Shown here piece after piece: positions 3,320-63,965 of a stretch of 64,000 nucleotides of DNA (the first letter of the stretch is position 1; every line of letters begins with the position of its first letter). Both the position numbers and the translations under genes were made by a program. The stretch is from an uncultured Flavobacteriaceae bacterium (GTDB taxonomy: Bacteria > Bacteroidota > Bacteroidia > Flavobacteriales > Flavobacteriaceae): contig CANKUU010000009.1 in the NCBI GenBank assembly GCA_947486785.1, positions 62,001-126,000 on the forward strand, read 5' to 3'. The notes beneath the pieces are model-generated. The model searched no databases. It worked only from the letters and a program-made list of their open reading frames with translations, and had not been told where the DNA came from.

Positions 3320-5401
3320 ATGAAAATATTTTTTATTGTACTTTTTATTGTTGTTCACCTAACAAACGCACAGCATCAAGATAAGGTTGATTTTTTAAAG
3401 GCAGAGGTAGTCATAAATCCAAATGGCAAAGAAAAGCGTATTGATGGAACGGTTATATATGATTTTAAGTTGCTTGAAGCAGTAGATTCTGTTTTTTTAG
3501 ATGCTAAAGCTATGAGCTTTAGTGCTGTAAAATTAAATGGCAAAAATGCGAGCTACCGAAACCACGATAATAAAATATGGATTAAAAATAAATTTAAGAA
3601 AGGATCAAAACATAAGCTCATCATTAGCTATAGCTGTACACCAAAACAAACTGTTTATTTTATAGGATGGGATGATGCTATTAAAGGAAATGAACAAATA
3701 TGGACACAGGGTCAGGGCAAGTATACTAGCTATTGGTTACCTAGTTTTGACGCCATGGAGGAAAAGTTTGTAGTTAATTTAACTATAAAATCGAGTAAAA
3801 ATAGTACCGTAATAGCAAATGGTATTTCTAATACTAAACCTCTTTTAAAAAATGATACACTCAGTTGGCAGTTTAATATGAAAAAACCAATGAGCAGCTA
3901 CCTTTTGGCATTTGCTATTGGCACATATAACAAGCAAGAACTGATATCAAAAAGTGGTATTCGAATTGAAAATTATTATTACCCAAAAGACAGTATAAAA
4001 GTAGAGCCGACTTATAGGTACACGAAAGAAATTTTTGATTTTATGGAGCAGGAGATCGGCATTCCGTATCCGTGGCAAAATTATAAACAGGTGCCGGTTC
4101 ATGATTTTTTATATGCCGGAATGGAAAATACAACAGCTACACTATTTTCTGATGGCTATGTTATAGATTCAACTGCTTTTATAGATAGAAATTACATAAA
4201 TGTAAATGCGCATGAATTGGCACATCAGTGGTTTGGAAATTTAGTAACAGAAAAAAATGGCAATCATCACTGGTTACATGAAGGTTTTGCCACGTATTAC
4301 GCACAACTAGCTGAAAAAAAACTTTTTGGTAATGAGCATTATTACTGGAAATTATATAATTCTTTGTTAGAACTTCAAAAAATAATAGATAGAGGAGAAG
4401 GACAAAGTTTAACCGACCCAAATGCCAGTAGTCTAATTTTTTATGAGAAAGGAGCTTGGGCAATTTATATGTTGCGAAATTTAATAGGTGATGCGAAGTT
4501 TAAGTTGGGTATTAAAAAATACTTAAAAAGTTTTGCTTTCAAAAATGCCACAATTAATGATTTTTTGAGTGAAATGGAGAAGGCTAGTGGTATTTCACTA
4601 TCAAATTTTTCAAAGACTTGGTTAGAAGGTAATAAAATACCTTTTAATGAGGCTAAAGCAGAATTGCAGAATGATGCTGAATCACTTCGATTGTTATTTG
4701 AAATGGAAAATAAATCTGATTCAATTTCTGACAATAATTTAGTTTATCAACAACTATGGTTACAAACTAATTCTATTGAGCTAAAGAATTATATAATCCA
4801 TACAAAAGCATCGAAACTCTCAACTCTAATTTGGGAAAAGGCTCTCGATGAAGATGATTTAAGAATACGTCGAGCTATTTCTTTAAATATGGATACTATT
4901 CCGCTTGTTTTAAAGGAAAAATTTGAAAAATTGCTTTTTGATAAAAGTTATGTTACCATAGAGAATGCTTTGTTTAAGCTATGGGTGCAGTACCCTAGTG
5001 AAAGGAGAAAATATTTAGATCAAACAAAAGCCATTATGGGCTTACCCAATAAAAATGTTCGGTTATTATGGCTTACTTTAGCCATCTTAACGAATGATTA
5101 TAATGCAAAGCATACCCAATATTATTTTCAAGAGCTTAGTGGTTATACAGCAGCACATTATAGTTACGAAGTAAGAATGAGCGCTTTTCAATATTTAAAC
5201 CAAGCTATTGGTTTGAACGACTTTTGCTTAGCAAACTTAGTATCTGCAACGCAACACCATAGCTGGCAGTTTAAAAAATTCGCTCGAAATTTAGTAGATC
5301 AATTAATACAGGATGTAAATTATAAAGCACGGTTTACCGCCTTAACTAAAAAAATGAAAGACGAAGAGTTGCGATATATAAAAACTAAATTAAATAAGTA
5401 A
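3320..5401 (+). CDS. secreted M1 family zinc aminopeptidase
   Basis: The protein has 693 residues and an N-terminal signal peptide ending near Asn-Ala-Gln. The M1 zinc site is complete: HELAH at residues 298-302 plus Glu321 in the following WLHEGF helix. A GMEN motif near residue 265 corresponds to the family's GxMEN exopeptidase loop. The region after the catalytic domain is helical, HEAT-like by appearance. It probably trims N-terminal residues from peptides in the periplasm. Its stop codon overlaps the start of the following patatin gene (TAATG), so the two are probably co-translated. Confidence 0.93.
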   Translation: MKIFFIVLFIVVHLTNAQHQDKVDFLKAEVVINPNGKEKRIDGTVIYDFKLLEAVDSVFLDAKAMSFSAVKLNGKNASYRNHDNKIWIKNKFKKGSKHKLIISYSCTPKQTVYFIGWDDAIKGNEQIWTQGQGKYTSYWLPSFDAMEEKFVVNLTIKSSKNSTVIANGISNTKPLLKNDTLSWQFNMKKPMSSYLLAFAIGTYNKQELISKSGIRIENYYYPKDSIKVEPTYRYTKEIFDFMEQEIGIPYPWQNYKQVPVHDFLYAGMENTTATLFSDGYVIDSTAFIDRNYINVNAHELAHQWFGNLVTEKNGNHHWLHEGFATYYAQLAEKKLFGNEHYYWKLYNSLLELQKIIDRGEGQSLTDPNASSLIFYEKGAWAIYMLRNLIGDAKFKLGIKKYLKSFAFKNATINDFLSEMEKASGISLSNFSKTWLEGNKIPFNEAKAELQNDAESLRLLFEMENKSDSISDNNLVYQQLWLQTNSIELKNYIIHTKASKLSTLIWEKALDEDDLRIRRAISLNMDTIPLVLKEKFEKLLFDKSYVTIENALFKLWVQYPSERRKYLDQTKAIMGLPNKNVRLLWLTLAILTNDYNAKHTQYYFQELSGYTAAHYSYEVRMSAFQYLNQAIGLNDFCLANLVSATQHHSWQFKKFARNLVDQLIQDVNYKARFTALTKKMKDEELRYIKTKLNK

Positions 5402-6315
5402 TGAGAGCTTTAGTTATATCTGGTGGTGGCAGTAAAGGGGCGTTTGCAGGAGGCGTTGCTCAATTTCTTCTTCAAGAATCTGGCAATAAATATGATTTGT
5501 TTGTAGGTACCTCAACAGGTAGTCTTTTAATTTGTCACCTAGCGCTGGGTAAATTAGACAAAATAAAAGAGATTTATTCTAATGTAGATCAAAATACCAT
5601 TTTTAATAATTGTCCATTTTTAGTAAAGAAAAAGAATGGTATTGATGAAATATCAATTAACCATTGGAATGTTTTTAAGAATTTCATGAAAGGAAAAAAA
5701 ACCTTTGGCGAAAGTGAGAATCTTAGAAAATTAATACGTAAAAGCCTTACCATTGAAGAATATCAAGAATTGCGAGATGGTCCTAACGATGTTGTAGTTA
5801 CCGTATCAAATTTATCTTTAAATCAAGTAGAATATAAATCGATTAATGATTATACCTACGATGAATTCTGTGATTGGATATGGATATCGGCAAATTATAC
5901 GCCTTTTATGAGTTTAGTACGTAAGAATGGATCTGAATATGCCGATGGTGGTTTAGGCAGTATTGTGCCTATTGAAGAGGCAATTCTTCGTGGGGCAGCA
6001 TATGTTGATGTTGTAGTACTTCATACAGAAATTAACTATATGAATCGAATGCCATCTAGAAACCCGTTCGAGCTTTTAACTACGATGTTAAGTTTTATTC
6101 TCGATCGAATCGAAAATCATAATATTAGAATAGGAAAATTAGTGGCTAATCAAAAAGATGCCATTATTAATTTGTATTACACGCCAACTGTTTTAACAAC
6201 GAATTCTTTAATATTTAATAAAGAAAAAATGACACGTTGGTGGAAACGTGGATATCTGTATGCTAAAAATAAGAACGAAAAAACGAATCCAATTCAGCCT
6301 AATGAGCATGAATAA
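5401..6315 (+). CDS. patatin-like phospholipase
   Basis: This 304-residue protein shows the full patatin signature: glycine-rich oxyanion loop GGGSKG (residues 8-13), nucleophile elbow GTSTG (36-40, Ser38) and the catalytic Asp in DGG (Asp182). Patatins are Ser-Asp dyad lipid acyl hydrolases. No signal peptide is visible, so it is likely cytoplasmic or peripheral on the inner membrane. The start overlaps the aminopeptidase stop by one base, which suggests translational coupling. The substrate cannot be read from sequence. Confidence 0.92.
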   Translation: MRALVISGGGSKGAFAGGVAQFLLQESGNKYDLFVGTSTGSLLICHLALGKLDKIKEIYSNVDQNTIFNNCPFLVKKKNGIDEISINHWNVFKNFMKGKKTFGESENLRKLIRKSLTIEEYQELRDGPNDVVVTVSNLSLNQVEYKSINDYTYDEFCDWIWISANYTPFMSLVRKNGSEYADGGLGSIVPIEEAILRGAAYVDVVVLHTEINYMNRMPSRNPFELLTTMLSFILDRIENHNIRIGKLVANQKDAIINLYYTPTVLTTNSLIFNKEKMTRWWKRGYLYAKNKNEKTNPIQPNEHE

Positions 6316-47701: not shown

Positions 47702-49252
47702 ATGAAAGAAACACAATCTAACACATTAAAAACAATTTCTGAAAAGCAAATTGATCAATGTATAAAGACATTAGAGCAACTATTAGAGAATACTGATTTC
47801 ATATTTGATATACCCAAAGAAAAGCGAACCGCTTTAATAAAAGCATCAGGGCGTTTATCACGCCCGAGTCGTGAAGAGTTTGCAAGAAGAAAGAAAGATG
47901 CAAAAAAAGCTCAGAAGCGTAAACAGGCGGCGAGAGATCGTTCTGCAAGAAAAGAGACCGGCATTAGAAGCGCTCGAGAAGCATCAATATTTGTAGCACC
48001 TAAATTACTGCCAATAGCTGAATTATCTTCAAAAGAAACAGCTGAGCTCGAATCACCAAGAAATTGTTACGTGTGTAAAACAGAATTTACCAAACTGCAT
48101 CATTTTTATGATACAATGTGTACCGATTGCGGAGACTTCAATTATGCAAAACGATTTCAAACAGCTGATTTAAAAGGTCAGGTTGCTGTTATTACCGGTT
48201 CTAGGCTAAAAATAGGATATCACATTTCTTTAATGCTTTTGAGGGCTGGTGTTACTGTAGTTGCTACCACGCGTTTTCCTGTAGATTCGGCTTTGCGGTT
48301 TTCAAAAGAAGATGATTTTACTGAGTGGGGCCATCGACTTAAAATTCATGGTCTCGATTTGCGTCATATTCCGAGCGTAGAAATTTTCTGCAATTATATT
48401 GAACAGAAATACGATCGCTTGGACATTTTAATTAATAATGCCGCACAAACCGTTCGAAGGCCAGCAGGTTTTTATCAGCATTTGATGCCTAATGAAGAAA
48501 AAACTATTGATGAGTTGCCAGCTTATGCGGCCTCTCTTTTGAAAGACCATGTTGCGTGTTTACAAGAATTAAAGGTGCTTACTTCTGCCGCCTCTTCAAA
48601 TCAGAATATGCCGGTAACTTGGCATGGCCCAGAGCCGGGTATTGGTCTTAGAGCTTCTGCAAAACTATCTCAAATACCATATAGTTTTGATAATTCGTTA
48701 CAGGCGAAAGAAGTTTTTCCTGAGGGCGAGTTAGATGCAGATTTACAACAAGTAGATTTGCGTAAAACGAATAGCTGGCGATTAAAACTTGGTGAGATTG
48801 AAACTACTGAAATGATTGAAGTGCAATTAGTTAATTCTGTAGCCCCTTTTGTTTTGTGTAATCGCTTATCTGAATTAATGAAGAAAGAGTTTACAGGCAT
48901 GAAACATATTATCAATGTTTCTGCAATGGAAGGTAAATTTCATCGCTTTTTCAAAGAAGATCGACATCCCCATACCAATATGGCAAAGGCCGCTCTTAAT
49001 ATGCTTACCCATACTGCGGCAGGCAGCCTAGCCAAAGATGGTATTTATATTAATGCTGTAGATACTGGTTGGGTAACCGATGAAGACCCTGCCGAATTAG
49101 CAAAACGCAAAGAAGAATTACACGACTTTCAACCTCCACTAGATATTGTTGACGGAGCTGCAAGAGTTATGGATCCGCTTTTAGACGGTATTAACACGGG
49201 TAAACATTGGAGTGGTAAGTTTTTAAAAGATTACCGCCCTATTGATTGGTAG
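47702..49252 (+). CDS. atypical SDR oxidoreductase with N-terminal cysteine pairs
   Basis: The 516-residue protein has a basic helical segment (about residues 55-90), then CYVC and CTDC (Cys122, 125, 140, 143), which look like a zinc knuckle. A Rossmann SDR domain follows, with GSRLKIG (166-172) and INNAAQ. The segment that normally carries Tyr-x3-Lys reads TNMAK, so the catalytic Tyr is replaced by Thr (near residue 425). The downstream part is otherwise SDR-like. Its reaction is unknown; it probably shares a transcript with the RNA helicase. Confidence 0.85.
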
Positions 49253-50552: not shown

Positions 50553-51506
50553 ATGTCTAATTCTAAAATTACTCCTTTAATACTATTGGCATTTTTCTCC
50601 ATATATGTAATTTGGGGTTCTACCTATTTACTAAATAAAATTGCAGTAGCCGAGTTAGCACCTTTTATGCTTGCCTCTATTAGGTTTATTATCGCAGGGG
50701 TTTTAATATTTATAATGGCAAAACTTTCTGGCAAGTCAATAATCATTTCCAAAAAGCAATTGATTAATACAATCATTGCTGGTTTTTTGTTTTTAGCATT
50801 TGGTAATGGGGTGGTAGTTTGGGCACTTAAATACGTAGATAGTGGTTTGGCAGCACTTGAAATATCTGCTCAACCTTTACTAATTTTAATTCTAATGCGG
50901 ATTTTACAAGGAAAAAAAATAAAGCCCATGTCAATTATTGGTGTAATTCTTGGAATTATAGGTATTTATCTGTTAATCAGTCAAAAAGCAGTATTAAATC
51001 AAGAAAATTCTATTCTTGGTATGGTGATGATTTTCTTTTGCATGCTTAGTTGGGGTTATGGTAGTTTATTTGTAAGTAGTGCAGACCTTCCAAAAAACTA
51101 TTTTGTAAATACGGGTTATCAAATGCTTACCGCTGGCGTAATGTTGTTATTTGCTAGTCTAGTATTTCGGGAGACATGGTCTTCGCCAACTTCATGGAGT
51201 GGAACTGTTCAGCTATCGATGCTACTGTTAATTATTTTTGGAAGCATTGTAGCATTTACGTCTTTCAATTATTTACTTCGAGTGGTTTCTCCAGAAAAAG
51301 TGGCAACATCTACCTATGTGAACCCAATTATAGCTTTAGCCTTAGGATGGTATTTTTTAGAAGAACAAATTACCTTGCAGTCGATAGTAGCTGCTGTAGT
51401 ACTTTTAACAGGTGTGTATTTCATTAATACAAAGAAAAAATTGGTGTTATTTTCTAGGTTTAGGTCAAAATATTTAAAAAATCGTGGTTCGGAACCGTCT
51501 TTATAG
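50553..51506 (+). CDS. EamA family (DMT superfamily) transporter
   Basis: The 317-residue membrane protein has about ten hydrophobic segments in two EamA repeats. The starting IYVIWGSTYLLNKIAV and second-repeat SPEKVATSTYVNPIIALALGW are typical. EamA proteins often export amino acids or related metabolites. Its 3' end overlaps the kinase gene on the other strand by 47 bp, tail to tail. The neighbouring amino-acid operon hints at the cargo; this is inference. Confidence 0.93.
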   Translation: MSNSKITPLILLAFFSIYVIWGSTYLLNKIAVAELAPFMLASIRFIIAGVLIFIMAKLSGKSIIISKKQLINTIIAGFLFLAFGNGVVVWALKYVDSGLAALEISAQPLLILILMRILQGKKIKPMSIIGVILGIIGIYLLISQKAVLNQENSILGMVMIFFCMLSWGYGSLFVSSADLPKNYFVNTGYQMLTAGVMLLFASLVFRETWSSPTSWSGTVQLSMLLLIIFGSIVAFTSFNYLLRVVSPEKVATSTYVNPIIALALGWYFLEEQITLQSIVAAVVLLTGVYFINTKKKLVLFSRFRSKYLKNRGSEPSL

Positions 51507-52401
51507 CATCTGCAATCACTTTAAGGCCTAAGTAATGATCGTTCATTTTTGGTTCAGGGTTGGTATAATTAAAGTTTCGATGTCTCCAAAAGGTCATCGC
51601 AGCCGCGGCATATACGGTAAAAGCCTGTAAAGCTAATTTTTCTTTTTCATGTAGTTTTATGATTTGTTGATAGCCTTGCATCAGTGAAGCAGCCTTTTTA
51701 AGATTTAGCCTGTCATTTTCGCTACAAAGCCCTACCAGAGCCATTCCTACATCAAAAATTCGGTAGTAATGGGCCGCTTCTTCAAAATCCATAATACAGG
51801 CAGATTTTCTGCTATTGTGTATTATTACATTGCTGTAAAAAATATCGCTGTGAATTAAGGTTTTTACAAGATCATTGGTAAAAAATGGATTAATATAGCT
51901 CTGAATATCATTCAACCACTTTTCAAAAGGAGACCCTTTAGCATAAAGGCTAACCGTGTTAAAATATTCGCGGCCGTATGGTATTACTTTAGGTAGGTAG
52001 ACAGGCGGTTTTATTTGATGTAGTTGCCCTATTTTAAATCCTAAATCGCGTAAAATAGTTGTAGATAAATTTTGTATTATATCACCTTCTAAGTACGTTT
52101 TTAGCATCACTGGCTTATTTTTCCAAGTAGAAATAAGTTTGTTTGAATTTGTGCGAATAACTATAGAAGTTTCAAATTGTTGTTGCTGTAAATATTCTAG
52201 TAACTGACCAAGTTCTAGCGCATTTTTAGCTGTCTTCTGCTCACAAATGGTAAGTATAAATTCGTATGTATTACTTTTAATGAAGTAATTGGTGTTTTCA
52301 GAACCTCCCCTTAAAAGCGCAAATGAATCTACTGTTTTAATAGCATACGCTGTCATTATTTTTATAACATCAGAACGATTTAAGTTTGTGTAATTAGACA
52401 T
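51460..52401 (-). CDS. APH-family small-molecule kinase (homoserine kinase II-like)
   Basis: The 313-residue kinase has the APH/choline-kinase catalytic loop LIHSDIFYSNVI and metal motif IMDFEEA. Family members phosphorylate amino alcohols, aminoglycosides or homoserine (ThrB2-type). It begins one base after the thrC-like stop, so it is the third gene of a tight operon. O-phosphohomoserine or another phospho-hydroxy-amino acid is a sensible product for the neighbouring PLP enzyme. No resistance role is indicated. Confidence 0.85.
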   Translation of the reverse strand: MSNYTNLNRSDVIKIMTAYAIKTVDSFALLRGGSENTNYFIKSNTYEFILTICEQKTAKNALELGQLLEYLQQQQFETSIVIRTNSNKLISTWKNKPVMLKTYLEGDIIQNLSTTILRDLGFKIGQLHQIKPPVYLPKVIPYGREYFNTVSLYAKGSPFEKWLNDIQSYINPFFTNDLVKTLIHSDIFYSNVIIHNSRKSACIMDFEEAAHYYRIFDVGMALVGLCSENDRLNLKKAASLMQGYQQIIKLHEKEKLALQAFTVYAAAAMTFWRHRNFNYTNPEPKMNDHYLGLKVIADAIKTVPNHDFLNILT

Positions 52402-52402
52402 A

Positions 52403-53854
52403 CTATTTCTCGTTTTTTAAATCCCAATCTGTTAACATTACTTGAGTCAATGCAGCCTCAGCATGTAAATGATCACATAAGTAAACCTTTTCGCAACGTG
52501 TCTTCGCTTTTTCAATGGAATGATGTTTTCCTTTATCAGGAATTTCTTTTCCTTTTAAAGCCCTTTTTGTGATTTTTGTAAACTTTGCGGGATGGGCGGT
52601 AGCTAGACACAAGGTTTTTAAATCTTCTAGTTCGTTTTTTAATTGTTCCACTGCCTTTAATGCAACGGCGCCATGCGGATCTAGAAGATAGGATTCATTT
52701 TTATATATCGATGCTATAGTTTCAAGCGTTTGCCCATCATTTATACTGGCAGATAAAAATCCTTCGGCATAGGAATTATGCGTACCCGCATCAAAATGAA
52801 TTTGCCCATTAGTTTTAAACTCGTTCATCCATGCCTTAATTTTTTCAGAATCTTTGTTAACGCAGAAATATAAATACCTCCAAAAGTTATAGGGTATTAA
52901 TATATCAATAGCAGATGAAGGGGTTTCAACTATGGGTTGCTTTTGAAATATTCCATTAGAAAAAATTCGATGTAAACAGGCATTCGTATTATTTGCAACT
53001 ATAAAAGTGTTTATAGGCAGTCCCATTTTTCGTGCTAAACCGCCCGCGCACAAATTACCAAATGCACCTGACGGTACAGAGACATTTATTTTTTCTCCAA
53101 TATGGTCTACCATTTGTAGATATCCATAAAAGTAATGCACCGTTTGCATAAGTATTCTACCCCAATTAATAGAATTAACACTAGAGAGCTGTACTTTATT
53201 TTTGAAGTCTAAATTTGCATATAATTTAGCTATTATAAGGTCTAAGTCATCACCACCATCTGGACAGTTTGATACACCAACGGGATGTATGTTTGTATGA
53301 GCTAAGGTGGTCATTTGCCGTTCTTGCTCTTCTGTAATAAAGCCTTTTGGGTACAAGATCCAAGCTGATAGATTAGATTTTCCGGCTGAAAAAAATGCAG
53401 TTGCTGGCCCTGTATCACCTGTTGTAGCTACGATAATAGATTTAAATTCATTATTTCTTTTTAAAAAGAAATCTACAAGATTTACTAAAAAAGCTAAGCC
53501 AATATCTTTAAAGGAAAGGGTAGGGCCATAAAAAAGCTCCATGATAAAGGTTTCTTTCTTCGTTTTTAACTTATGGAATGGTATAATTTCTGACTTTTCA
53601 AAAGAATTGTAGGCATCATGAAGTAGTGTTTTTAATTCAATTTCAGAGATAACTGATCGGTCTATAAAAAGCGATAAGATTTCAAAAGCCAATTCTAAAT
53701 ATCCTAATTTTTTCCAATTTGCTAGTTGCTGTAAAGAAATTTTAGGAAGCGCTGTTGGTACATACAAACCACCATCTACCGCAAATCCATCTAAAATGGC
53801 TGTTTCAAAGTCTACTGGTTTTCCTCCACCTGTATTGCTTATATATTGAATCAT
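52403..53854 (-). CDS. thrC: threonine synthase-like PLP enzyme
   Basis: The 483-residue protein has the fold type II PLP lysine in LSFKDIGLAF and the phosphate-binding TTGDTG motif, typical of threonine synthase. The start overlaps the preceding OCD gene by ATGA. Threonine synthase converts O-phosphohomoserine to threonine. Because no thrA or homologue of the GHMP kinase thrB is here, and an OCD gene leads the operon, it could be a second, specialised copy. The symbol is by family only. Confidence 0.85.
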   Translation of the reverse strand: MIQYISNTGGGKPVDFETAILDGFAVDGGLYVPTALPKISLQQLANWKKLGYLELAFEILSLFIDRSVISEIELKTLLHDAYNSFEKSEIIPFHKLKTKKETFIMELFYGPTLSFKDIGLAFLVNLVDFFLKRNNEFKSIIVATTGDTGPATAFFSAGKSNLSAWILYPKGFITEEQERQMTTLAHTNIHPVGVSNCPDGGDDLDLIIAKLYANLDFKNKVQLSSVNSINWGRILMQTVHYFYGYLQMVDHIGEKINVSVPSGAFGNLCAGGLARKMGLPINTFIVANNTNACLHRIFSNGIFQKQPIVETPSSAIDILIPYNFWRYLYFCVNKDSEKIKAWMNEFKTNGQIHFDAGTHNSYAEGFLSASINDGQTLETIASIYKNESYLLDPHGAVALKAVEQLKNELEDLKTLCLATAHPAKFTKITKRALKGKEIPDKGKHHSIEKAKTRCEKVYLCDHLHAEAALTQVMLTDWDLKNEK

Positions 53855-54807
53855 AAACGGTCTAATTTATAGTTTTGGTAAACCGATGTAGCGATCATTA
53901 TATCTTGAACAGCTACTCCGGTAAGATCTACTACAGATATTTGGTCGTTATGTTGGCGTTGTAGTTTTTTATTTTGAATGGCTAAACCAAGCTCTACTAT
54001 AGCTTTGTTAGAAATAAACCCTTGCGAAAGTGCTTGATAAATTTCTCCGCGACTTTTACTCTGTTCAATGCTATCGGCAATAATTAGATCTGCTTTTTGA
54101 AGAATACTACCTGCCAATTCTTGTTTATCTGATGTATCTGAGCCCACAGCGGTAATATGGGTGCCTGGTTGAATATCATCTGCATCAAGTAAAGCAGTCG
54201 CTGATGGGGTAGTAGTGACAATTAAATTACAATTTGCAGCAACTTCTCGTGGGTTTTTAGCAATGTTAATATTAAAATACCCACCTAATTCTTCTTTAAA
54301 TTTCTGGACATTTTTATTCGTTCTACCCCAAACCCAAACCTGCTTACAATCCATTACTTTTTGCAAATACTGTAACTGTAACTTTGCTTGTATACCGGTA
54401 CCTATGATACCAATTGCTTTAATTTTTGATGGAGCAAAATACGTAGCAGCTACCGCACCAGCTGCTGCGGTACGCACATCTGTTAAATGACCTTCATCTA
54501 ATAAAACAGCTGTGGTTTGTCCTGTTTGTTGATTAAACAAGACCATCATACCTTGACTTGAAGGTAGCCCTAATTTCGAATTTTCATAAAAACCAGATGC
54601 TATTTTAACCACATAGTAGGCATCATCTTTAATATAACCATATTTAATATGTACATCTCCGGGAGGCGAATTAAAAAGTAATTCGGCAACAGGTGGAACC
54701 ACCGTATTACCATTGCTATATGCTATAAAACCAGTTGTAATGGCATTAACAACATCAATCTTTTTAAGAAGTAATTTAATTGTTTCTAGCGTAATAATTG
54801 CGGTCAT
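53851..54807 (-). CDS. ornithine cyclodeaminase/mu-crystallin family protein
   Basis: The 318-residue NAD(P)-binding protein has IGIIGTGIQAKLQLQYL as nucleotide loop, the substrate lysine region YYVVKIASGF and the terminal VDLTGVAVQD signature. The family includes ornithine cyclodeaminase, alanine dehydrogenase, ketimine reductases and SbnB. It is the first gene of the operon with the threonine synthase-like and kinase genes, overlapping the next by 4 bp. The substrate cannot be read from sequence. Confidence 0.9.
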   Translation of the reverse strand: MTAIITLETIKLLLKKIDVVNAITTGFIAYSNGNTVVPPVAELLFNSPPGDVHIKYGYIKDDAYYVVKIASGFYENSKLGLPSSQGMMVLFNQQTGQTTAVLLDEGHLTDVRTAAAGAVAATYFAPSKIKAIGIIGTGIQAKLQLQYLQKVMDCKQVWVWGRTNKNVQKFKEELGGYFNINIAKNPREVAANCNLIVTTTPSATALLDADDIQPGTHITAVGSDTSDKQELAGSILQKADLIIADSIEQSKSRGEIYQALSQGFISNKAIVELGLAIQNKKLQRQHNDQISVVDLTGVAVQDIMIATSVYQNYKLDRL

Positions 54808-56511: not shown

Positions 56512-59500
56512 TTATTGTTTTATTATTTTGTAAACCTTCTGCTCATTGTTCGTTTTGTTTAGTAAACTTAAATAATATATGCCTGTTGACAATGTTGAAA
56601 TGTTTATCGTTTCGGTTTCATTAATTGGATTTATTGTTTGATGAATACTTCCTGTCACATCAAATATATTAATCTGAAATAGATTTGTATTACCTGTAAT
56701 AATAAATTGATTTGTAACTGGATTTGGGAAAATTTGAATTTCGTTTGTACTAACATCATCAAAACTTGAAGGTACATCAGGATCATAGAAACCAAAATCT
56801 ACAGAGTTATTTCCAGCTGCATCATAATTAAAATTACAATCAAAAGCATCACCATCATTTAAAGGCTCACCTGTAGTCGTTAAAGTTATAATTCCTGATT
56901 TAATTTCTGTAAATGGCTCTCCAAAACCATTATTATCACCGTCAACATCATTATTTGCGTTTGCGACAAAGCCATTGGTTGATACAAAACCATTTAAGGG
57001 TTCACCAACTCCCCAATTATCTTGACTCCACACAAAAAGCAAATAATTACCAGGTTTTAAACCTGAAAATTTATAATAGCCCTCGCTATCAGTAACTTCA
57101 ATGCCACTAAATAATTCAGGATTACCATCTCCATCCGAATCACTCCATAACACAACCGAAACACCGGAAATACCTGGTTCGTTAGGATCATTTATTCCAT
57201 CTCTATTGAGATCATTCCATACACGGTTCCCTATAGATACAACTCCCGGAGCGCTTAAATCGCTCTCACAGTCTTGCGAACAAAAGGCCATTTCGTTTAC
57301 AGATCGTATCATCTCATCACCGATTAATTTTCCAATATTTAAAAAGCTGAGTGCATTATTATTAAAATGAAATACAGCATCGTCGGGAGATACTGAACTT
57401 TCAAGATAAAATCGTTTAGTGTCTACAAAACCAACATGACCTCCATAAGTATCATCATCACATCCAACCGTCTCTTGAGCGACAGAGATAATATTTTGAA
57501 TATCTTGTACCCAAAGATCATCGCTAGGTGTATAGCCGCCATGACCAGAACTCGCAATAACAAATGGCAGATTTGGAACCTTTAGATCATTTCTTACATC
57601 ATTGATAAGGTGGTTTAAGTTACTTTCATATTCATTTAAAAAACTAGCATTATCGGCATCATTCCAACCTTGAAACCATGCAAAACCAGATAATTCAAAA
57701 TCTGATATCCCAATAGTTGGAAACTCTGTATTTAAATTTTGAGTGACGTTTTGTACAATTTGAATCATTTCATTATAAAATACACCTGTTGTTCCACCAG
57801 CAGAAGGCGGACGAAAATCTTCTGCTAAATTTTTTCCTCCCCATGCGGTTTTAATAATCACGACAGGATCATCGTAAAATTTATCTAGCTGATGTGCAAA
57901 CATTAATTCTGGCCCAAAAGAATTAGAATTTGCTCCTTGGCCAACCGTAACGTTTTGTTTTATGGTGCCATCATCACCTTCATAATATAAAAACACATCG
58001 TTTAGGGTGTTCCAATTATCAACACGTCCAACGTCAGACCAATCACCGCTTTCATCATTTTGTATAACATCTATTAAATCTCCAAGATCATTTTCTGGAT
58101 CATCAATAGCTCCATGTCCTTGCATATTTGACTGACCAGCTAAAATAAAGACTCTTACTTTAGGTGGTGTTTTTTGTTGTCGTGTAACAATAGGTACATA
58201 GCCTATCTCCAAACCAGCAGGTGGATCAATAATTATTTTAGGGTCTAGAGTTGCAAGCTTCCCAAAAGAAGGAGCTGCTAAATATTCATCTTTATGACTC
58301 CAATTAGAATGAATTAACTCCACTCTGGCTTGCATAGCGGTGCGCATAGACTCAGGAAGATTTGCATGAATAACAGCTGGCTGATCTATAAACCGATACC
58401 AATAATAAGTTACTGTTGTGCCATCGCCTAAATCTGCTGTAAACGGGCCAGCCGTAGGACCAGGACTTTGCCATGGGCCACTTGGATCTTGAAATAGACA
58501 ATCTGGCTCCATTGGAGTTAGGTACGGAATTTCACTTCTTGGTGTGTTTGGAACATTTGTTGTTAATAAATTTGTAGATTCGGGTACATTAGCAGCATCA
58601 ATAGGACGCCATTTGTTGTCTGTATCTAATCTAAAGTATTCTGGTAAAATAAAAACCCCATTACTTTTTTCAACGATATTGAGATCGAACTCAAAACCTG
58701 TTACATTATTAGATGGTTTCAGGTTTTGAATATAAGTTAAATCTATTAAGTGTTCGAAACCACCTTCTGCGGCTTCTGAAATTTCACCTTCAATTGCGCC
58801 ACCATTATCTATAAAATCAATATTTAATACTCCTGTTTGATTAATTTGTGGTTGGACTATTGCACCACCATTAAACCAAGCGTTCATATTATTCCAAAAA
58901 GCATTTTGAGAATAGGCTTTAACTTGACTCAAAACGATCGAATTGTTACTGCCACTTTCAGGAAATTGTATTCTTTTAATTTTAGCGAAATGATTGCCAT
59001 CATCATCTTTAAAAATTATTGCCGGATATTCGGCTTGCTCAACACCTAATCCAACGTTTGGATCTGAAGGTCTTGTGTCAAAAAATAAACCTTCTAAGGC
59101 TGGGTTTTCTAATACAGGCTTTGTCCAAAATGTGGGTAAGAAAAAATTGATAGGGCCCTTAAAATTCGTTGTGTTCATAAATAATGTCCAACACTGGTTA
59201 CCTGTTGCTATATTGGTACCAGCAGTCTGAGTCATAGGATCAGTAATAGGCAAAGGTATATAGCCATAACCTAAGAATTCTCCATTTAATCCTTGAGCCA
59301 TATTTAAGCCATCAGGAGCCCATAATAATCGATTTGACAATTGCGCAACACCATATTTTCCACCAGGTGTTCTCCAATCTCTTTGTCCGTTTGCTAACAT
59401 ATTACTTTTACCTGCGCCTGTGCCATTTGCCCATGAAGAGAAATTAAGTGCGACACCACCCATTATAAATTTTGGCGTTTTTGTACCAAATCGAGTATCT

Positions 59501-59874
59501 GACCACCAACCTAATCCACCTTCAATGGTAGTATAGAAATCTGTTGGTTCTTTACCTGTTGATTGTGGGGTAAGCCAAGAACTTCCAAGCCCTGTTTGAA
59601 AATCTAATGACCCAGGATATTCTTTAAATGTAGGCCAAGCTGCGCTATACATGGTAAAACCAGATCCAAAGCTAGTATCTGTTACCCTTTCGGTGTTAAT
59701 CCAAGAAAAACCAGTCCTTCGCGCTTTAACCACTTGTGCATTTGCATCATAAAAGGAGATTGAAAAAATGATAAGGAACGTCTTAAGAAGCAACGGTAGA
59801 TTCAATAAAGGGTCTTTACTGAGGTCATTGCTACTTGTATATTTAAATAAACTAAATCTATTTTTAAGAGTCAT
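56512..59874 (-). CDS. T9SS-exported SASA/CE6-type esterase with large N-terminal module
   Basis: This 1120-residue secreted protein has four visible parts. A signal/anchor covers residues 1-46. An unrecognised Trp- and Gly-rich module follows to about 560. A sialate-O-acetylesterase/CE6-type domain (about 570-860) has the serine in GQSNMQG (Ser582) and a possible acid/base region at 831-836 (DDAVFH). An SdrD-B-like repeat (about 885-1035) has DLNRDGINDPNEPG. The C-terminal ~75 residues are a type A T9SS sorting domain (IFPNPV...GIYYLSL). It should be exported across the outer membrane and remove acetyl groups from a polysaccharide. Confidence 0.88.
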   Translation of the reverse strand: MTLKNRFSLFKYTSSNDLSKDPLLNLPLLLKTFLIIFSISFYDANAQVVKARRTGFSWINTERVTDTSFGSGFTMYSAAWPTFKEYPGSLDFQTGLGSSWLTPQSTGKEPTDFYTTIEGGLGWWSDTRFGTKTPKFIMGGVALNFSSWANGTGAGKSNMLANGQRDWRTPGGKYGVAQLSNRLLWAPDGLNMAQGLNGEFLGYGYIPLPITDPMTQTAGTNIATGNQCWTLFMNTTNFKGPINFFLPTFWTKPVLENPALEGLFFDTRPSDPNVGLGVEQAEYPAIIFKDDDGNHFAKIKRIQFPESGSNNSIVLSQVKAYSQNAFWNNMNAWFNGGAIVQPQINQTGVLNIDFIDNGGAIEGEISEAAEGGFEHLIDLTYIQNLKPSNNVTGFEFDLNIVEKSNGVFILPEYFRLDTDNKWRPIDAANVPESTNLLTTNVPNTPRSEIPYLTPMEPDCLFQDPSGPWQSPGPTAGPFTADLGDGTTVTYYWYRFIDQPAVIHANLPESMRTAMQARVELIHSNWSHKDEYLAAPSFGKLATLDPKIIIDPPAGLEIGYVPIVTRQQKTPPKVRVFILAGQSNMQGHGAIDDPENDLGDLIDVIQNDESGDWSDVGRVDNWNTLNDVFLYYEGDDGTIKQNVTVGQGANSNSFGPELMFAHQLDKFYDDPVVIIKTAWGGKNLAEDFRPPSAGGTTGVFYNEMIQIVQNVTQNLNTEFPTIGISDFELSGFAWFQGWNDADNASFLNEYESNLNHLINDVRNDLKVPNLPFVIASSGHGGYTPSDDLWVQDIQNIISVAQETVGCDDDTYGGHVGFVDTKRFYLESSVSPDDAVFHFNNNALSFLNIGKLIGDEMIRSVNEMAFCSQDCESDLSAPGVVSIGNRVWNDLNRDGINDPNEPGISGVSVVLWSDSDGDGNPELFSGIEVTDSEGYYKFSGLKPGNYLLFVWSQDNWGVGEPLNGFVSTNGFVANANNDVDGDNNGFGEPFTEIKSGIITLTTTGEPLNDGDAFDCNFNYDAAGNNSVDFGFYDPDVPSSFDDVSTNEIQIFPNPVTNQFIITGNTNLFQINIFDVTGSIHQTINPINETETINISTLSTGIYYLSLLNKTNNEQKVYKIIKQ

Positions 59875-62420: not shown

Positions 62421-63965
62421 TTATCTAGGTTCTAAAACTACAAATGGTATAATCATTTCTTCAAGAGAAACACCTCCGTGCTGGTAACTGTTTCTATAAT
62501 AGCTTACATAGTGATTATAGTTGTTAGGGTATGCAAAAAACAAATCATTCTTAGCAAATATGTAAGAACTACTCATATTTATACTCGGTAAATGTATGCT
62601 GCGAGGATCTTTTGCTTCTAAAACATCTTTTTTTTGATAGGTTAAACTACGCCCAGTCTTATACCTAAGGTTTAAACTAGTTTCTTTATCGCCAATAACC
62701 TTTGACGGTTGTTTTACATTAATAGTACCATGGTCAGTAGTGATTATTAACTTAAAGTTCATTTGTTGAGCTTGTTGAATAATCTCAAGTAGTGGCGAGT
62801 TCTTAAACCAACTTTTTGTTAAAGATCGGTAGGCCTTATCGTTTGATGCTAACTCTTTAATAACTTCCATTTCTGTTTTTGAATGAGACAGCATATCTAC
62901 AAAATTGTATACAATAACCGTTAAGTCATTATTTTTTTGAGATCTAAAATTATGTGATAGCTGCTTACCTTGTTTTAAACTTGCTATTTTATGATATTCC
63001 CATTTTAAGTTTAAGCCCAATCTTTTTAGCTGCGCTTCTAAAAATTTGTTTTCAAATAAATTTTTACCGCCTTCGTCGGTGTCATTTTTCCACCACTCTG
63101 GATGTTTTTTTTCCATTGCTAACGGTGTTAGCCCAGAAAATATTGCGTTCCTAGCATATTGAGTTGCTGTTGGTAAAATGCTTAAGTAAGATTTTTCTTG
63201 TGATTTTTTATAAAATGAGTTTACAATATCCTCAAAGGCATACCATTGATCAAAACGTAAATTATCAACTACTATTAATAGGGTAGGGGTATCTTTAAGT
63301 TCAGGTACCACCCAATTTTTAAATAAGGTATGCGACATTATAGGCCCAGATGAGTCTGTAAACCAATCTTCATAATTTTTTTCAACAAATTTTCCGAACT
63401 GCTGATTTGCTTCTACTTTCTGCGATTCTAGAATTTCAAACATGCCGCTATCTTCAATACCTTCTAACTGCATCTCCCAGTAAATAAGCTTTTTATAAAG
63501 CTCGGCCCATTCTTCATAGCTATTTACTACTGACAAATTCATCGCGATCTTACGAAACTCTTGTTGGTAGTTTGAGGTTGTTTTTTCAGAAACCAAACGA
63601 GAATGGTCTAAATTTTTCTTAAGAGATAATAAAATTTGATTAGGATTTACTGGTTTTATTAGGTAGTCTGCTATTTGAGAACCAATAGCTTCTTCCATAA
63701 TAAACTCTTCTTCACTTTTGGTAATCATTACTACAGGAAGCGTAGCATGCATTAATTTTATTTCACCTAAAGTTTCAAGTCCAGATATACCTGGCATGTT
63801 TTCATCTAAAAAAACAATATCAACTTGAGAGTGAGTAAGTTCTTGAAGCGCTTCTTGTCCACTTTTACAAGTAATAACATCATAATTTTTTGATTGAAGA
63901 AAAATTATGTGTGGCTTTAAAAGATCTATTTCATCATCAACCCAAAGAATACGTATCTTTTTCAT
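62421..63965 (-). CDS. porX: T9SS response regulator PorX
   Basis: The 514-residue protein has a receiver domain (Asp10, Asp11, phosphoacceptor Asp54, Thr82, Lys104), a helical linker and a PglZ/alkaline-phosphatase-like effector domain from about 210 with VVDNLRFDQW and ITTDHGT. This architecture is PorX, which with PorY and SigP controls the type IX secretion system. The pairing of this gene with a T9SS cargo gene 2.5 kb away fits a T9SS-using organism. The start codon ATG at 63965 overlaps a partial frame entering from the right edge. Confidence 0.95.
   Translation of the reverse strand: MKKIRILWVDDEIDLLKPHIIFLQSKNYDVITCKSGQEALQELTHSQVDIVFLDENMPGISGLETLGEIKLMHATLPVVMITKSEEEFIMEEAIGSQIADYLIKPVNPNQILLSLKKNLDHSRLVSEKTTSNYQQEFRKIAMNLSVVNSYEEWAELYKKLIYWEMQLEGIEDSGMFEILESQKVEANQQFGKFVEKNYEDWFTDSSGPIMSHTLFKNWVVPELKDTPTLLIVVDNLRFDQWYAFEDIVNSFYKKSQEKSYLSILPTATQYARNAIFSGLTPLAMEKKHPEWWKNDTDEGGKNLFENKFLEAQLKRLGLNLKWEYHKIASLKQGKQLSHNFRSQKNNDLTVIVYNFVDMLSHSKTEMEVIKELASNDKAYRSLTKSWFKNSPLLEIIQQAQQMNFKLIITTDHGTINVKQPSKVIGDKETSLNLRYKTGRSLTYQKKDVLEAKDPRSIHLPSINMSSSYIFAKNDLFFAYPNNYNHYVSYYRNSYQHGGVSLEEMIIPFVVLEPR

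Follow-up and report, generated by a model that had tools for sequence, protein, structure and literature searches.

A three-gene operon was analysed in a 64,000-nucleotide stretch of DNA from an uncultured Flavobacteriaceae bacterium (assembly GCA_947486785.1, contig CANKUU010000009.1, positions 62,001 to 126,000), hereafter called the window. The operon encodes a protein of the ornithine cyclodeaminase (OCD) family, a pyridoxal phosphate (PLP) enzyme resembling threonine synthase (ThrC) and a kinase of the APH fold. It is a self-contained accessory module, most likely with a catabolic or salvage role, and we propose, with moderate confidence, that it joins a kinase, a phospho-lyase and an imine reductase. 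In the fuller form of this proposal, which we consider evenly balanced, a ThrC paralog has turned into a dedicated phospho-lyase that would convert a kinase-activated γ-hydroxy amino acid into an imine, the OCD would reduce this imine to a saturated amino acid (for example, L-2-aminobutyrate), and the module would move between Bacteroidota and Pseudomonadota.

The operon is separate from threonine biosynthesis

The three genes are arranged head to tail on the minus strand, in the order OCD, ThrC-like enzyme and kinase:

53851..54807, minus strand: OCD/mu-crystallin-family putative reductase, 318 amino acids (aa), operon gene 1
53851..53854, minus strand: stop/start overlap of the OCD and ThrC-like genes, 4 bp
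52403..53854, minus strand: ThrC-like fold-II PLP enzyme (THRC2, threonine-synthase paralog), 483 aa
51460..52401, minus strand: ThrB2-like kinase (APH fold), 313 aa, operon gene 3

The 4-bp overlap likely couples the translation of the OCD and ThrC-like genes, and a gap of 1 bp (52402) separates the latter from the kinase gene. Coordinates, strand, overlap and gap agree with a first-pass annotation of this DNA, whose assignment of the products as OCD, threonine-synthase-like enzyme and APH-type kinase was upheld by domain and family models. The same annotation had suggested a search for a separate thrA-thrB-thrC set, and the genome of the window (3.57 Mb, 99.8% complete) contains a complete one, another thrC included, on contig C6. 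This second thrC scores higher than the ThrC-like gene of the operon (281 versus 222 bits) and forms a compact operon with a thrB of the GHMP type and, upstream, an 816-aa open reading frame, which we read as a fused thrA because its start resembles aspartokinase. Since a complete thrA-thrB-thrC set is located on another contig, the operon described here is not the housekeeping threonine route, and the possibility that it is the genome's only one is ruled out.

The ThrC-like enzyme is a distinct paralog of threonine synthase

The ThrC-like protein contains the Thr_synth_N and PALP domains and scores 221 bits against TIGR00260 (thrC), above the curated cut-off of 167, while no SbnA or cysteine-synthase (CysK) model matches it at E <= 0.01. 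In the PDB, phmmer matched it to threonine synthases alone. Its predicted structure (mean predicted local distance difference test score, 91) can be superposed over the whole length on full-length threonine synthases, with Z scores of 45–50 and template-modelling scores of 0.79–0.90, whereas cysteine synthases, dehydratases and serine racemases reach a Z of only about 26; the best structural matches are all threonine synthases. The paralog or a close relative of it is found in only 7 of 298 relatives (the genome of the window itself and six others, with 62–70% identity), each of which also encodes a canonical ThrC with about 34–37% identity to the paralog. The paralog is thus a sporadic, accessory gene. 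A genome search meant to span the phylum sampled this family again and brought no additional information.

In the phylogenetic tree, 26 paralogs form one clade with a long stem and 100% support in the SH-like approximate likelihood ratio test (SH-aLRT). Its members come from Flavobacteriaceae, Saprospiraceae, Lewinellaceae, Alteromonadaceae, Porticoccaceae, Granulosicoccaceae, Chromatiales and the pSymA replicon of S. meliloti. Its closest neighbours are ThrCs of the yeast/Brucella type, in a part of the tree where, as the tree program warns, long branches meet.

The active sites were compared by aligning 51 paralogs, some of them near-copies, with 30 canonical ThrCs. The PLP lysine (K116), D147 and T148 are unchanged in all 51 paralogs, which also retain the NSxNxxR motif (N227, S228, N230 and R233), which binds the substrate phosphate in the Thermus enzyme. 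Three other positions separate the two groups completely. Residue 114 is Ser in every paralog and Ala in every canonical enzyme; residue 150 is Pro in every paralog and Gly, Ser or Ala, never Pro, in the 30 canonical sequences; and residue 264 of the GNFG loop, which holds the PLP phosphate, is Ala or Gly in 51 of 51 paralogs (A264 in the window) and Asn in 30 of 30 canonical ThrCs. The retention of the PLP and NSxNxxR residues, together with these fixed changes, suggests that the paralog probably takes a γ-phosphorylated amino acid, with either the pocket or the reaction altered.

The paralog therefore has the fold, the N-terminal domain, the PLP lysine and the GDTG and NSxNxxR motifs in common with canonical full-length ThrCs (yeast 1KL7, Brucella 4F4F and E. 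coli 1VB3), from which it differs by its separate clade, its identity of about 34% to the ThrC of its own genome, the fixed S114, P150 and A/G264, and its operon with an OCD. It is never the sole ThrC of a genome, except in one incomplete metagenome-assembled genome (MAG). Further ThrC-type genes were seen in some genomes: Aquimarina AU58 has a third gene of the threonine-synthase type (L116:6777-7991; PRK08197, 405 aa), about 5 kb from its second OCD copy, and third matches to TIGR00260 are also present in genomes G683, G685, G687 and G697.

The kinase and the OCD-family protein

The kinase contains an APH domain (61 bits). Its best named relative is the homoserine kinase PRK05231/ThrB2 (141 bits, under the cut-off of 271), it scores 92 bits against TIGR00938 (cut-off 256), and the homoserine kinase 2PPQ is its sole phmmer match in the PDB. 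The catalytic motifs H184-x-D186 and D205-F206 are invariant in 16 orthologs and common to 2PPQ. The alignment with ThrB2 (2PPQ, PRK05231) covers the full length, sharing the MxxYTxL start, ENTN, the HxDxF loop and DF, and the two proteins diverge in the acceptor region, which reads MDFEEAxYYYR in the kinase and IDFYFACNDLL in ThrB2 (DFEEA versus DFYFA). In a Chromatiales symbiont, pieces of a kinase ortholog interrupted by several in-frame stops (G689:C84:10919-11721) represent a pseudogene or an assembly error.

The OCD protein scores 204 bits against PF02423 (gathering cut-off 24) and carries the nucleotide-binding GxGxxA motif, as GIIGTGIQA, along with the motifs HIKYGY, [VI]KIASGF, RTA and DLTGVAVQD. 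Its best PDB match by phmmer is an archaeal alanine dehydrogenase. Sequence comparison places it in a subfamily of its own, with EutC as the closest characterised relative that has a name (about 38% identity; 252.7 bits against TIGR02992, under the cut-off of 471.7). It falls further below the models of BhcD (166 bits, cut-off 500) and of SbnB (TIGR03944, 96.5 bits, cut-off 326.9). Where alanine dehydrogenase has an Asp, the corresponding stretch of the OCD has Gly-Arg (WGR). Gly-Arg at such a position generally favours NADPH, and hence reduction, so that this OCD may use NADPH and work in the reductive direction. One OCD copy (G681:C125:9283-10221) carries a single in-frame TAG.

The three genes co-occur in distant bacteria

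A search through species genomes of bacteria and archaea yielded 43 paralog loci, some of them near-copies or short contigs. With pSymA included, the OCD subfamily is present in 33 of 44 loci and the kinase likewise in 33, several of the remaining loci being short contigs. All three genes occur together in 26 further loci, from Flavobacteriaceae, Saprospiraceae and Alteromonadaceae. The between-locus distances of the three proteins are correlated (r 0.72–0.87; 0 of 2000 permutations), so the genes have moved together, as one module, among distantly related bacteria. The module is interrupted at some loci. At L013 a gene for an EF-hand protein (4872-5981, 369 aa) lies between the OCD and the ThrC paralog, and at L020 two genes are inserted. 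A gene for a reductive-dehalogenase/QueG-like iron-sulfur protein (L020:4765-5976) lies there between a YfcC-type transporter and the paralog.

The association extends beyond linkage. Among 25 paralog genomes searched whole, the OCD subfamily (46–72% identity) was found in 24, linked or unlinked, all other OCDs of these genomes having at most 33% identity; 21 genomes had the kinase and one more had a broken copy of it, and a canonical ThrC was present in 24. Several of these genomes are incomplete MAGs, where an absence carries little weight. Because the OCD accompanies the paralog even when the two are unlinked, it is a partner and not a chance neighbour. This disposes of the alternative raised in the first-pass annotation, a ThrB2/ThrC route beside an unrelated OCD, and its view that the three genes act together is strengthened by the recurrent triad, the correlated distances and the unlinked co-occurrence.

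Neighbouring genes

The neighbours point to amino-acid uptake and use. A polar amino-acid ABC transporter accompanies the OCD and paralog in S. meliloti pSymA and in the Chromatiales symbiont, LAO-type binding proteins being present at both loci, and an Lrp/AsnC regulator lies upstream in Paraglaciecola. Enzymes of the threonine/serine-dehydratase or EutB-like type are found beside the OCD or the kinase in seven loci, and a EutB-type dehydratase is also beside the unlinked OCD in two genomes; the OCD has thus been paired repeatedly with PLP enzymes that make enamines or imines. M28 peptidases occur in five of the dehydratase-bearing settings. The transporters, the regulator and the peptidases are our reasons for regarding the setting as catabolic.

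Two neighbourhoods bear on the substrate. In Aquimarina AU58 a homoserine dehydrogenase gene directly follows the kinase, and a GNAT gene is present too. On pSymA the OCD and paralog have no kinase ortholog, the best S. meliloti match being a chromosomal enzyme with 22.9% identity that is annotated as a ThrB2-type homoserine kinase. Rhizobia are known for a housekeeping homoserine kinase of the ThrB2 type, and O-phosphohomoserine would therefore be available there.

GntC/VioD-like PLP enzymes (PRK07324) were found at two sites. One directly follows a subfamily OCD in Aquimarina (L116:12066-13184); the other belongs to a Chromatiales genome (L130:3096-4241), where it is encoded on the opposite strand to the OCD, about 1.4 kb away. 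What these enzymes act on might give a clue to the substrate of the OCD.

Proposed route and its alternatives

What each enzyme acts on, what the route yields and in which direction the OCD works are inferred as follows. The ThrB2-like kinase would phosphorylate the γ-hydroxyl of an amino acid, creating a leaving group. The ThrC paralog would then form the PLP aldimine, take the α and β hydrogens and expel the γ-phosphate in the manner of threonine synthase, and the α,β-enamine would be released as a 2-imino acid instead of, or besides, the addition of water at C-β. Finally, the OCD-family enzyme would reduce the imine with NAD(P)H before it hydrolyses. L-homoserine is most likely the input, given the homoserine dehydrogenase that follows the Aquimarina kinase and the pSymA locus without a kinase ortholog; the first-pass annotation had also put homoserine forward, and its idea of phosphate as the leaving group is plausible. 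The specific sequence from homoserine through O-phosphohomoserine and 2-iminobutyrate to L-2-aminobutyrate is suggested more tentatively.

OCD-family enzymes recur behind PLP lyases. Threonine synthases proceed via an aminocrotonate intermediate, and BhcB and BhcD act on β-hydroxyaspartate. By analogy, the proposed route would follow the logic that has been proposed for EutB/EutC and is established for BhcB/BhcD, with phosphate replacing water as the leaving group. In hydroxyectoine catabolism, too, an OCD-family enzyme (EutC) comes after a PLP lyase (EutB); the operon differs in that its lyase is a ThrC paralog, which needs a phosphate leaving group, and is served by a kinase. BhcB/BhcD (β-hydroxyaspartate dehydratase and iminosuccinate reductase) likewise couple elimination to an imine with reduction by an OCD-family enzyme, their lyase being of a different family and unaccompanied by a kinase. 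EutABC has been proposed to convert hydroxy-ADABA (ADABA, acetyldiaminobutyrate) to ADABA (PMC13188858), the OCD/mu-crystallin family members BhcD and CRYM reduce imines in vitro (PMC11876095), and α-ketobutyrate is a second product of some threonine synthases (PMC12172450). Imine reduction would, by the same analogy, be the function of the OCD. Searches of the open-licence literature on the three enzymes together, on pSymA and on phosphohomoserine lyases brought up no account of this module.

Several points weigh against this proposal. No neighbouring gene names the product, the reason for which a cell would make 2-aminobutyrate is not evident, and the genomic context also fits the formation of threonine from homoserine and its subsequent degradation. 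The change of Asn to Ala or Gly could alter the size of the pocket and not the type of reaction. SFK in place of AFK, tried as a marker of dehydratases, has no discriminating value. The coenzyme assigned to the OCD is read from a single motif, and in two genomes the GntC/VioD-like enzymes close to the OCD hint at other γ- or β-hydroxy amino acids.

The strongest rival is catabolic threonine formation, in which the kinase and the paralog would use imported homoserine to form threonine, with degradation to follow and the OCD handling a downstream imine (for example, from threonine dehydratase). The TIGR00260 score above the cut-off, the retained NSxNxxR and PLP-site residues and the dehydratases that recur beside the OCD are in its favour, and homoserine salvage via homoserine kinase (HSK) and threonine synthase (ThrS) is documented in T. 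brucei (PMC4460637). Plasmids of Mesorhizobium, Aminobacter and Bradyrhizobium (L092, L093 and L094) carry a thrC with canonical motifs, a ThrB2-type kinase and a peptide ABC importer, with kbl in Mesorhizobium and Bradyrhizobium, tdh in Mesorhizobium and an OCD near the thrC cluster in Mesorhizobium and Aminobacter. These look like homoserine/threonine catabolic clusters and resemble the operon in their accessory ThrC, ThrB2-type kinase, importer and catabolic setting. However, their ThrCs have the canonical Asn, never found in the paralog clade, and threonine degradation genes replace the tight OCD partner. Most triads, that of the window included, have no adjoining dehydratase, and threonine alone would not require the dedicated OCD of 24 of 25 genomes. 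We consider this explanation rather unlikely.

It is also unlikely, somewhat more so, that the same kinase, lyase and reductase logic serves another γ-hydroxy amino acid (a 4-hydroxylated ornithine, arginine, glutamate or branched-chain amino acid), yielding the deoxy amino acid. The fixed changes in the paralog active site, the acceptor region in which the kinase departs from ThrB2, the LAO-type binding proteins of S. meliloti and Chromatiales and the GntC/VioD-like proteins would suit such a substrate, whereas the homoserine dehydrogenase of the Aquimarina operon and the lack of a dedicated kinase on pSymA would not.

A diamino-acid product, as envisaged in the first-pass annotation by an echo of SbnA/SbnB, appears quite improbable. 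Here the paralog would add an amine (ammonia or glutamate) at C-β of the aminocrotonate, giving 2,3-diaminobutyrate or an adduct cleaved oxidatively by the OCD. SbnA/SbnB, which make 2,3-diaminopropionate, likewise pair a PLP enzyme acting on a phosphorylated amino acid with an OCD-family partner, and the two systems agree in their enzyme classes and in the logic of the operon; the chemistry of fold-II enzymes would also allow an amine as nucleophile, and a GNAT gene follows in Aquimarina. However, SbnA is cysteine-synthase-like, and neither operon protein is homologous to SbnA or SbnB at the subfamily level, a homology ruled out by the curated models and the fold described above. Siderophore or non-ribosomal peptide synthetase genes were not found among the subset of neighbours scanned, and the import-type and peptidase neighbours indicate uptake and not export. 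The relatives of the OCD seem to agree better with imine reduction than with a diamino-acid product.

Finally, an inhibitor-resistant spare threonine synthase with its own kinase, comparable to the self-resistant ThrC of rhizocticin producers, would account for the pocket changes of a second ThrC, and is highly improbable, as it leaves the OCD unexplained and no phosphonate genes were found among the neighbours scanned.

Other genes of the window

One further gene converges on the operon:

50553..51506, plus strand: EamA/YedA-type exporter, 317 aa, convergent to the kinase gene

It overlaps the end of the kinase gene by 47 bp. The first-pass annotation had taken it for a possible exporter of the product, a link that proved weak: the adjacency is kept only in the window and its two nearest complete loci (L011 and L012), and the transporter was rejected as a member of the system. 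Elsewhere in the window, positions 56512-59874 encode a large predicted secreted protein of 1120 aa, whose sequence, judged by eye, resembles a domain of the sialate-esterase type, an SdrD-B-like repeat and a C-terminal tail for type IX secretion, and the type IX regulator PorX is encoded at 62421-63965. A 516-aa protein (47702-49252) combines a Cys-rich stretch with a dehydrogenase-like half and matches no NCBIfam model at 1e-25.

Implications

Genes of this sort carry the annotations threonine synthase and homoserine kinase, and would pass for threonine biosynthesis. If they form instead a separate phospho-lyase/reductase route, annotation and metabolic models would be wrong at this point for many marine bacteria and for the pSymA replicon of S. 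meliloti, and the paralogs would constitute a new enzyme family with diagnostic residues and a possible use in making non-standard amino acids.

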